The notes below the pieces were generated by a model. The model made no database searches and had not been told where the DNA came from. It saw nothing but the letters and a program-made list of their open reading frames with translations. The translations under genes were made by a program, and so were the position numbers. Source: Caballeronia concitans (GTDB lineage: Bacteria; Pseudomonadota; Gammaproteobacteria; Burkholderiales; Burkholderiaceae). From it: a DNA stretch of 64,000 bases. Below, in pieces: positions 4,493-59,554 of the stretch (positions are counted from its first letter, which is position 1; every line of letters begins with the position of its first letter). The DNA lies in assembly GCF_001544615.1 (NCBI RefSeq), contig NZ_FCNV02000001.1, positions 186,001 to 250,000 on the forward strand. Direction: 5' to 3'.

Positions 4493-4610
4493 TTATCGGC
4501 GGGCAAATAAAAAAGCGCTGTTGGAGTCATCCAACAGCGCTTTCGATTTGGGCACTTTGTGCCTCATGTCTCCTCGTTCTCCACCTCAAAATTCGGGTGC
4601 AACAGAACTA
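4493..4610 (-). ncRNA. Candidate ~100-nt stand-alone transcript with a possible 24-codon micro-ORF
   Basis: Reading leftward, a promoter at 4617-4645 is followed by about 100 nt that end in a strong hairpin terminator. The would-be RNA is rich in GGAG and GAGGAG near its 5' side. It contains an ATG at 4567 that opens a 24-codon frame (MRHKVPKSKALLDDSNSAFL, then FARR) whose stop codon at 4493-4495 lies beyond the terminator. AGGAG lies only 2 nt before the ATG, but a GGAG lies about 10 nt before it. The unit could be a small RNA or a short leader-type gene. Nothing else in this 520-bp gap looks coding. Confidence 0.4.
4505..4543 (-). terminator. Strong hairpin terminator in the gap between Liv loci
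   Basis: AAAGCGCTGTTGGA (4512-4525) pairs perfectly with TCCAACAGCGCTTT (4530-4543) around the loop GTCA. On the minus strand the stem is followed by TTTTTTATTT. It sits about 215 bp after the end of the downstream liv operon and about 100 nt after a separate promoter, so it more likely ends the small unit described here. Confidence 0.8.
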
Positions 4611-48817: not shown

Positions 48818-48877
48818 TGTCTCCTCCATGTCTCCTCCTGATATGGATTCAGCCCGCCAACTAGGCGGGCTTTTTTT
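48818..48877 (+). ncRNA. Small RNA of about 60 nt with two anti-Shine-Dalgarno motifs
   Basis: The 343-bp gap between ada and hslU contains a complete small transcription unit: a promoter, then about 30 nt of unstructured RNA, then a terminator. The unstructured part holds CTCCTCC twice (48821-48827 and 48832-48838), each inside TGTCTCCTCC. It can pair with the GGAGGAGACA type of ribosome-binding site. The terminator stem AGCCCGCC (48851-48858) with GGCGGGCT (48864-48871) is followed by seven T. There is no start codon with a ribosome-binding site. Arrays of CUCC motifs are known in small RNAs of other proteobacteria, such as the CcsR RNAs of Rhodobacter. I cannot assign this one to a named family. 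Confidence 0.65.
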
Positions 48878-48913
48878 CGTCCGTACGTTCCGTGCGTATT
48901 TCGTGCGATGGAC

Positions 48914-58194: not shown

Positions 58195-58200
58195 TATAAT
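58195..58200 (+). promoter_or_regulatory. -10 box of the metK promoter
   Basis: A perfect TATAAT lies at 58195-58200. No good -35 box is 16-18 bp upstream (TCTGTA at 58172-58177 is the nearest). Transcription would start near 58207, giving metK a leader of about 160 nt. Confidence 0.6.
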
Positions 58201-58205
58201 AAGAC

Positions 58206-58367
58206 CTTCGCCGAGTTAATGGACAACTTGCGGGGCGAAGCCGGCTGAAGCCTGATGAATATCGGGTGGAGGCCGGAGAAAGGACATCCGCTAAAGCGTC
58301 GCCGCTTCAGACTCCAAACGAAGCCGGCTACGTGAATCTCAACCGTACTCAATTGGAGTCTGAAGCG
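58206..58367 (+). promoter_or_regulatory. Structured metK leader: candidate translation-control riboswitch
   Basis: The leader can form these helices: CTTCGCC (58206-58212) with GGCGAAG (58234-58240); CCGGC (58241-58245) with GCCGG (58272-58276), enclosing the hairpin CCTGAT-GAAT-ATCGGG (58251-58266) across an internal loop TGAAG/TGGAG; and CGCTTCAGACTCCA (58303-58316) with TGGAGTCTGAAGCG (58354-58367). The last helix is 14 bp and perfect. It buries the ribosome-binding site GGAG (58355-58358) and the G of the GTG start codon. CTGAAGC (58245-58251) can instead pair with GCTTCAG (58304-58310), which would free the ribosome-binding site. That is the layout of an on/off translational switch. SAM is the obvious ligand to suspect; this is inference. 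Confidence 0.6.
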
Positions 58368-59554
58368 TGTCACACGACTATCTCTTTACTTCCGAATCCG
58401 TTTCCGAAGGCCACCCGGACAAGGTCGCCGACCAAATCTCCGACGCCATCCTCGACGCCATCCTGTCGCAGGACAAATACTCGCGCGTCGCAGCGGAAAC
58501 GCTCTGTAATACCGGTCTCGTCGTGCTCGCGGGCGAAATCACCACCACCGCGAACGTCGATTACATCCAGATCGCGCGCGACACCATCAAGCGCATCGGT
58601 TACGACAACACCGATTACGGCATCGACTATCGCGGCTGCGCGGTGCTCGTCGCGTACGACAAGCAATCGCCGGACATCGCGCAAGGCGTGAACAAGGCGC
58701 ACGACGACAACCTCGATCAAGGCGCCGGCGACCAGGGCCTCATGTTCGGCTACGCGTGCGACGAAACGCCCGAACTCATGCCGCTGCCCATCCACTTGTC
58801 GCACCGTCTGGTCGAGCGTCAGGCGAACCTGCGTCGCGACGGCCGTCTGCCGTGGCTGCGTCCGGACGCGAAGTCGCAAGTCACCGTGCGCTATGTCGAC
58901 GGCAAGCCGCACTCCATCGATACCGTCGTGCTGTCCACGCAGCATTCGCCGGACATCGACCTGCCGCAACTGCGCGAAGCGGTCATCGAAGAAGTCATCA
59001 AGCCGACGCTGCCGAAGGAACTCATCAAGGGCGACATCAAGTTCCTGGTGAACCCGACCGGCCGGTTCGTGATCGGCGGTCCGCAAGGCGATTGCGGTCT
59101 GACGGGCCGCAAGATCATCGTCGATACGTACGGCGGCGCGGCTCCGCACGGCGGCGGCGCGTTCTCGGGCAAGGACCCGTCGAAGGTCGACCGCTCGGCC
59201 GCTTACGCGGGCCGTTATGTCGCGAAGAACATCGTCGCGGCGGGCCTGGCATCGCGCGCGCTGATCCAGGTTTCGTATGCAATCGGCGTCGCGCGTCCGA
59301 CTTCGGTGATGGTCAACACGTTCGGCACGGGCCGCGTGTCGGATGCGGAAATCACGAAGCTCGTGCTCGAGCACTTCGACCTGCGTCCGAAGGGCATCAT
59401 CCAGATGCTCGACCTGCTGCGCCCGATCTACGAAAAGACGGCGGCATACGGCCACTTTGGCCGCGAAGAGCCTGAATTCTCGTGGGAATCGGCGGACAAG
59501 GCGCTCGTGCTCGCCGAAGCAGCCGGCACGGAACCGGTCGCTCGCGTGGCGTAA
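58367..59554 (+). CDS. metK: S-adenosylmethionine synthetase
   Basis: MetK makes SAM from methionine and ATP. The 395-residue protein has [20 protein letters not shown] at the N-terminus, [12 protein letters not shown], and the P-loop-like [19 protein letters not shown]. The start is the GTG at 58367 ([15 protein letters not shown]) with GGAG 8-11 bases upstream inside the leader helix. A strong terminator follows. It is divergent from lpxL. Confidence 0.97.

Follow-up and report, generated by a model that had tools for sequence, protein, structure and literature searches.

We analyzed a 64,000-nucleotide (nt) stretch of the Caballeronia concitans genome (contig NZ_FCNV02000001.1, positions 186,001 to 250,000; hereafter the window) and focus here on the leader of its metK gene, which encodes methionine adenosyltransferase. 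This leader is very probably a riboswitch, and we consider it likely to be a translational OFF switch whose aptamer is a variant of the SAM-II superfamily (SAM, S-adenosylmethionine), widespread in Burkholderiales. A preliminary description of the window, made from the sequence alone, had proposed that the metK leader folds so as to hide the ribosome-binding site and is possibly a SAM-type riboswitch; the analysis supports that proposal as the most likely one but places the aptamer elsewhere.

A conserved pseudoknot related to SAM-II

The conserved aptamer is an H-type pseudoknot made of positions 58206-58240 and 58288-58300, in which helix P1 is combined with a helix P2 between GAC..TTGCGG (58222-58233) and CCGCTAAAGCGTC (58288-58300). 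In an alignment of 14 leaders of the window's genus (A1), two near-invariant blocks (~58207-58240 and ~58287-58335) flank a variable hairpin. The hairpin that the preliminary description had taken for a ligand pocket (within 58241-58287) is this variable part, and the pseudoknot had been missed.

Covariation was scored on 65 distinct, loop-trimmed sequences of this metK type, from metK and other genes (A3), a set that excludes eight sites whose P1 is displaced by a single base. The results show standard pairs in 94.5% of the helix cells, compared with 85.5% in column shuffles and 34-47% in controls with slid partners, two-sided changes in 11 of 16 pairs, and a covariation score of 0.282 versus 0.113 in shuffles. 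On four of five covariation measures none of 500 shuffles matched A3, a count that is not a probability because the sequences are related, a relatedness that the slid controls retain. All six scored pairs of P1 carry two-sided changes (94.6% of cells paired), as do three of the four scored pairs of P2a (86.5% of cells paired), whose versions among relatives include GAC/GUC, AAC/GUU and GUC/GAC; the outermost scored P2a pair fails in 29 of the 65 sequences and is absent in the window. Two pairs extending P2b covary (GG/CC, AG/CT, GA/TC, GT/AC) next to an invariant inner core, TTGC/GCTAA. TTGC and GCTAAA are each present in 65/65 sequences, as the collecting pattern demanded, and so are the first G and the TT of loop L1. 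A P1 and a P2 with covariation, the arrangement of SAM-II, are therefore found on 65 distinct metK-type sequences.

The SAM-II pocket was placed on the leader through what we take to be the 2QWY sequence. The window keeps 12 of its 13 conserved nucleotides (U11, U12, U20, U21, G22, C23 and G42-A47), with a G at the position of U10. In SAM-II itself U10-U12, U20-C23 and G42-A47 are completely conserved, and the O4 atoms of U11 and U21, both kept here, recognize the sulfonium (PMC3764141; published work is cited here and below from the available portions of each paper). The likeness extends to P1, which has six pairs in the Rfam model and seven here, to a promoter-like box directly 5′ of P1 (PMC1273637), and to a location upstream of methionine and SAM genes (metK, metX, metZ and metH). 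The differences are the lack of a match to the Rfam SAM-II model (SAM_alpha, RF00521), the G at the U10 position, a loop L3 whose length varies and reaches 47 nt in the window, metK as the target, and a separate hairpin that hides the ribosome-binding site.

The preliminary description had held that the leader does not look like SAM-I, SAM-II, SAM-III, SAM-V, SAM-VI, SAM/SAH or the S-adenosylhomocysteine (SAH) class. This stands insofar as a scan of 801 bases with the leader inside, taken to E 10, gave no match to any Rfam model for SAM or SAH riboswitches, SAM-I, SAM-III, SAM-IV, SAM-V, SAM-VI, SAM/SAH and SAH among them; it does not stand for the core, where P1, P2 and 12 of the 13 pocket nucleotides match SAM-II. 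SAM-I, SAM-III, SAM-IV, SAM-VI, SAM/SAH and SAH also gave no match in the whole window at gathering score, and SAM_V (RF01826), likewise taken to E 10, had none in the window region or in 20 other loci. A permissive threshold applied to 20 loci gave SAM_alpha only in L033 (over the cut-off) and L040 (weakly), a scan of 20 loci at gathering score gave it only in L228, and L115, SAM-II-like by eye, had no RF00521 match.

Across the order, RF00521 matches in 70 of 170 genomes and exceeds its cut-off in 26, while at E 0.01 it finds nothing in the window's genome or in the five further members of its family that the draw contained. In two genomes, G132 (locus L077) and G191, a match over the cut-off lies ~40-50 nt upstream of metK, and a sister genus (g15; G050, L038) has the metK type in that same slot. 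Our own model of the element, R1, was built from 27 sequences, three of them SAM-II-like (L033, L077, L115). It matches the window at 58205-58303 (57.7 bits, E 7e-12), which is recognition rather than discovery because the genus enters R1 through L014. Where R1 and RF00521 were compared, in 12 genomes with R1 matches, RF00521 matches 10 and marks the place found by R1 in nine, over the cut-off in G875 and G865 and below it in G887, G720, G713, G905, G475, G507 and G496. The best reading of these likenesses is that the metK-type element belongs to the SAM-II superfamily.

The sequestering helix and the proposed switch

Two bases past the end of P2 begins an arm that is 100% complementary to the start region of metK: 58303-58317 and 58353-58367 form a perfect 15-nt inverted repeat with 35 nt between the arms, one pair longer than the 14 bp first described. 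The repeat spans TGGAG (58354-58358) and reaches one base into the GTG start codon, the G at 58367. By a hand estimate, the chance of such a pairing in ~320 bases is about 5e-5, so that it lies far beyond chance. Alone, the hairpin has a predicted fold energy of -28.6 kcal/mol, and that of the 195-nt leader has a z of -2.33 against shuffles, 4 of 200 of which were equal or better.

The helix is conserved as a structure. For each of 70 distinct leaders, the 34-nt segment that follows GCTAAAG was paired with its own ribosome-binding region or with swapped partners, and the mean pairing was -18.1 kcal/mol for the own leader and -12.8 kcal/mol for the swapped ones (paired test 8e-10, with leaders that are not independent; in the median, 12% of swaps are as strong). 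Since own pairing beats swapped pairing, the helix is kept while its sequence changes, whereas the segment with the proposed pocket and CTGAAGC (58241-58280) is not conserved. Between the arms lies a small conserved hairpin motif, GRAGNCGGNNNCGY. Of the 64 distinct metK leaders, 19 carry its pattern, compared with a mean of 0.015 and at most 1 in shuffles; the motif is possibly a protein or ribosome contact or just a stable loop closer. The 11-mer CGAAGCCGGCT, correctly reported as present twice (58236-58246 and 58319-58329), is the P1 3′ strand plus variable sequence in one copy and belongs to this separate conserved downstream motif in the other.

The computation shows a conserved pseudoknot that is related to SAM-II, together with a sequestering helix that is conserved too; from these we infer SAM as the ligand, an OFF sign and a pairing for the ON state. 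The aptamer would bind SAM in the major groove of P2b, in the fashion of SAM-II. At high SAM, P2 would hold CCGCTAAAGCGTC, leaving the arm 58303-58317 free to pair with 58353-58367 and turning metK translation off. The OFF sign is proposed because a P2 closed by SAM leaves the arm free to cover the ribosome-binding site, and it is the sign expected for a SAM synthetase. At low SAM, the pseudoknot would open and the arm would find another partner, perhaps the released CTAAAGCG (58291-58298), which can pair with CGCTTCAG, so that the two pairings would be mutually exclusive; alternatively, the ribosome may bind before the long helix closes.

The mechanism is weakest at this point, the opening of the helix when SAM is low. 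The anti-sequester element first put forward, CTGAAGC (58245-58251), is indeed complementary to seven arm bases (58304-58310) but lies in the variable region, and the 7-mer occurs in only one of 35 same-genus leaders. The candidate CTAAAGCG pairs with arms of its own leader at -4.02 and with shuffled arms at -3.29, a weakly positive general test. Of four aptamer segments only CUAAAGCG pairs better with arms than with shuffled arms, and none prefers its own arm over those of other leaders; in an earlier version of the test, no more than 5% of shuffles equalled the leader in 14 of 70 cases. Inside L3, 9 of 35 leaders have a stretch of 6 nt or more that is complementary to the arm (shuffle mean 2.8, maximum 8 in 500), and since this exceeds the shuffle maximum, L3 may hold a lineage-limited competitor, such as GGAGTCT in four leaders.

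The metK product scores 604.5 bits against the NCBIfam metK model (cut-off 309.4), and the gene has the GTG at 58367 as its start codon. The leader begins at ~58206, directly 3′ of a TATAAT box, and transcription would be expected to start near 58207, at the foot of P1; a consensus scan for promoters and terminators gave no match, a full sigma-70 promoter included.

Table 1. Features of the metK leader and gene, numbered as in the window.
Feature	Position	Strand	Basis or remark
TATAAT, putative -10 box	58195..58200	+	sequence; also just 5′ of P1 in many relatives
P1 5′ strand, CTTCGCC	58206..58212	+	pairs with 58234-58240
Loop L1, GAGTTAATG	58213..58221	+	G58213, T58216, T58217 = SAM-II G8, U11, U12; G58215 at U10 position
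P2a 5′ strand, GAC	58222..58224	+	pairs with GTC 58298-58300
P2b 5′ strand, TTGCGG	58228..58233	+	TTGC = SAM-II U20 U21 G22 C23
P1 3′ strand, GGCGAAG	58234..58240	+	pairs with 58206-58212
L3, hairpin region variable in length and sequence (47 nt)	58241..58287	+	alignments A1, A2
P2 3′ strand, CCGCTAAAGCGTC	58288..58300	+	GCTAAA = SAM-II G42 C43 U44 A45 A46 A47
Possible anti-sequester, CTAAAGCG	58291..58298	+	may pair with CGCTTCAG 58303-58310, 7 of 8
Anti-Shine-Dalgarno arm, CGCTTCAGACTCCAA	58303..58317	+	inverted repeat; own-versus-swapped pairing
Small conserved hairpin motif, ACGAAGCCGGCTACGT (GRAGNCGGNNNCGY)	58318..58333	+	motif pattern; between the two arms
Sequestered ribosome-binding site, TTGGAGTCTGAAGCG	58353..58367	+	inverted repeat; own-versus-swapped pairing; last base = first base of GTG
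metK (methionine adenosyltransferase), 395 aa	58367..59554	+	open reading frame; NCBIfam TIGR01034

Distribution and downstream genes

Within the window's genus, 36 of 37 genomes have the leader, the window's own included, and the one that lacks it is 60% complete. Among 24 genomes of other families in the order, 10 had short matches to the leader query, eight of them to the first block, and two of those eight (G040 and G057) have it elsewhere than upstream of metK. We then considered 124 metK upstream regions, 36 from the genus, eight chosen for having a match and 80 chosen by family regardless of the motif. The core pattern occurs in 68 of them (35/36, 7/8 and 26/80, respectively); two of those 26, L077 and L115, look SAM-II-like, as RF00521 confirms for L077 but not for L115. 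At E ≤0.01, R1 finds an element of either type, upstream of any gene, in 314 of 399 genomes of the order (compared with the 26 of 170 over the RF00521 cut-off, in a different draw), in 136 of 276 genomes of a class-wide draw, and in 40 of 249 of a phylum-wide draw, order members included. The exact metK-type pattern occurs in at least 118 stretches, of which 80 were listed, with Cupriavidus, Polynucleobacter, Bordetella, Chromobacterium, Dechloromonas, Accumulibacter and Thauera, among others, in the listed records. At the Cupriavidus loci L266 and L267, the downstream gene was confirmed as metK. One genome outside the order, G650, has ten R1 matches arranged as five adjacent pairs.

Among the 80 listed stretches, 63 are upstream of metK, 11 precede a small open reading frame (ORF), whether or not a MATE gene is visible (a SAM-II-like copy lies upstream in 10 of these), and six are upstream of something else, one of these six (L333) ending inside a metK-like start. 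SAM-II-like copies (GATTTG..CTTGC or ATTGC..GCTAAA) are found upstream of metX, of metZ with T-runs, of metH (L168) and of a metN-like gene (L233). By NCBIfam, L172 is MetX and L165 MetZ, both over the cut-off, L168 is the start of MetH, and L233 is a 70-aa piece with MetN as its best match; a 140-aa MetX piece had no Pfam match, whereas NCBIfam identifies the full protein as MetX. The remaining metX and metZ labels are based on short motifs that we take to mark these proteins. Copies at metX occur in the window's genus (L172, a weak R1 match) and elsewhere (L174). Those of the genus score 19-20 bits (E 0.43-0.72 per genome; 0.005-0.006 for L172 and L175 in a separate search), and the metK element is the sole R1 match, at E up to 1, in the genome of the window. 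At 20 of 22 metZ/metN-type loci, a run of at least five T lies within 110 nt downstream, a raw count without a baseline. An antiterminator at the metZ-type loci was tried and rejected, as CTTTAG, the complement of CUAAAG, occurs downstream in only 7 of 22.

The copies upstream of metX and metZ probably correspond to the metXZ element of beta-proteobacteria, for which Leyn et al. (2014) describe a possible pseudoknot between regions 1 and 4 and regions 2 and 6, before metX or metZ (PMC4239095); the two were compared by description, and the available text of that survey draws no connection to SAM-II.

At ten loci (L138, L139, L146, L153, L156, L167, L195, L198, L202 and L204), two aptamers stand in tandem, the SAM-II-like one first and the metK type second. 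These pairs precede a small ORF starting MYDC or MFDC (one scanned, with no Pfam match) and then a transporter gene of the MATE family (Pfam MatE in the one example scanned), an operon that is probably under SAM control. In published SAM-II/SAM-V tandems, the first, SAM-II aptamer acts at a terminator and the second at the ribosome-binding site (PMC2704228, PMC9481103, PMC11508383). Likewise, 44 tandem SAM-II examples are on record, and in some of them a terminator precedes a ribosome-binding-site platform, an order that resembles our pairs; the 44 may include some of our pairs (PMC9481103). Since such tandems have been published (PMC9481103, PMC11508383), the pairs before the MATE operon are of a known kind.

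Elements of the metK type also stand upstream of genes resembling, by eye, MoxR-type AAA ATPases (L177, L181, L217, L219, L308 and L314; L219, the only one scanned, gave a weak Pfam bpMoxR/AAA_5 match below the cut-off). Two tandem elements (5-65 and 146-205) precede an HD-domain protein in L193 (Pfam HD_4 on a 60-aa piece), and metK-type or related elements outside the order lie upstream of unassigned genes in L216, L220, L248, L249 and L250, with no Pfam match for 70-aa pieces from L220 and L249. In the window, Rfam also marks ncS01 (Burkholderia sRNA 1, a small RNA; 4509-4609, minus strand) and Betaproteobacteria_toxic_sRNA (48818-48878, plus strand), both of which look ordinary.

Alternative explanations and significance

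Several observations weigh against a SAM-II variant that works as an OFF switch. On the side of the aptamer, the fifth covariation measure, further pair types, gives 24 versus 22.3 and is reached by 94 of 500 shuffles, and RF00521 does not detect the window's element in the 801 bases scanned, even at E up to 10. The strongest RF00521 matches of G901 and G713 escape R1, the two models disagree in G901, and G658 and G760 carry R1 matches with no RF00521 match. On the side of the switch, only 22 of 70 leaders individually pair with their ribosome-binding site better than 95% of swaps, and the candidate anti-sequester pairs equally well with the arms of other leaders (-4.01). The sequestering hairpin (-28.6 kcal/mol) is far stabler than any ON structure found, including the CTAAAGCG hairpin (-5.7 kcal/mol), and freeing the ribosome-binding site costs ~17.6 kcal/mol in the predicted fold of the whole leader, so that switching would have to be kinetic or co-transcriptional. 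Finally, the U10 position in A3 is G in 51, T in 13 and A in one of the 65 sequences.

This last point speaks for a rival reading, in which the G reshapes the pocket for a ligand other than SAM, such as SAH, methylthioadenosine or a polyamine. The same variant precedes genes without a clear link to SAM (the MATE operons, MoxR-like ATPases and HD-domain gene), and published work describes a spermidine-sensing variant of SAM-I that has a metK representative (PMC10853860). We nevertheless regard a non-SAM ligand as unlikely, given that the other pocket positions, sulfonium-facing uridines included, are invariant in A3 (most of them demanded by the collecting pattern), that metK is the main target, and that an Rfam-positive SAM-II occupies this slot upstream of two metK genes. 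It is very unlikely that the leader is merely a stable structure over the ribosome-binding site, a thermometer or a constitutive attenuator, free of any ligand: the 15-bp helix does dominate the predicted fold on its own, but the conserved upstream pseudoknot would have no role, and related copies precede other platforms, as the T-runs (counted without a baseline) at metZ/metN-type loci indicate.

A protein, for instance MetK itself, might bind the leader and autoregulate. PMC9373788 mentions the proposal of an RNA-binding MetK, and a test there with riboswitch small RNAs, in the available text, detected no specific interaction; the conserved core here is the SAM pocket of SAM-II rather than an arbitrary hairpin, which makes protein autoregulation highly improbable. 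Attenuation by a short leader peptide, MDNLRGEAG from the ATG at 58219, deserves almost no credence. That ATG falls within a conserved block in the window's genus, yet it belongs to the variable L1, is found at that place in only 4 of 33 matched leaders outside the genus, and the changes track base pairing, not codons.

A riboswitch of the SAM-II superfamily therefore remains our preferred interpretation, and its rank within that superfamily can be drawn in two ways. SAM-V (RF01826) has a SAM-II-like pocket on a different scaffold (PMC2704228, PMC9481103, PMC11508383), and it was split from SAM-II because lengths of the paired regions differ and searches sort the two apart (PMC2704228). Unlike in SAM-V, a separate hairpin does the sequestering here, and the pseudoknot is not next to the start codon, P2 ending at 58300 and GTG beginning at 58367. 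The standard that separated SAM-V would also allow the metK type to count as a separate class; we file it as a variant. A bolder reading, which we hold tentatively and find possible without favoring it, makes it a distinct aptamer class within the superfamily, as SAM-V is, because homology search separates it from SAM-II, U10 is replaced by G, and it has its own ribosome-binding-site platform. It would then be the main metK regulator in much of Burkholderiales, would form with SAM-II in tandem a two-stage gate on the MATE operon, and may sense a different ligand before some genes.

SAM-III (the SMK box) also hides the ribosome-binding site, with a fold that differs from that of the metK-type element. 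The two are alike in controlling metK in this way, and unlike in fold and in the lack of a SAM-III Rfam match here; SAM-III is found at metK in Lactobacillus (PMC4239095). In the open-licence literature, in its available portions and with subscription papers outside the search, we found no description of a SAM-II-type element upstream of metK in Burkholderiales. The 2014 survey reports, in its available text, that a search for a metK regulator in beta-proteobacteria failed (PMC4239095). The element described here fills that gap for part of the order, since 26 of 80 family-chosen and 35 of 36 genus metK upstream regions carry it or a SAM-II-like relative, and the metXZ element is probably tied to SAM-II as well. 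Because a pocket residue has been swapped in nature, ligand discrimination can be tested directly and, if the proposed function is true, a knotted SAM-sensing RNA would explain how the essential metK gene is controlled in many related bacteria.
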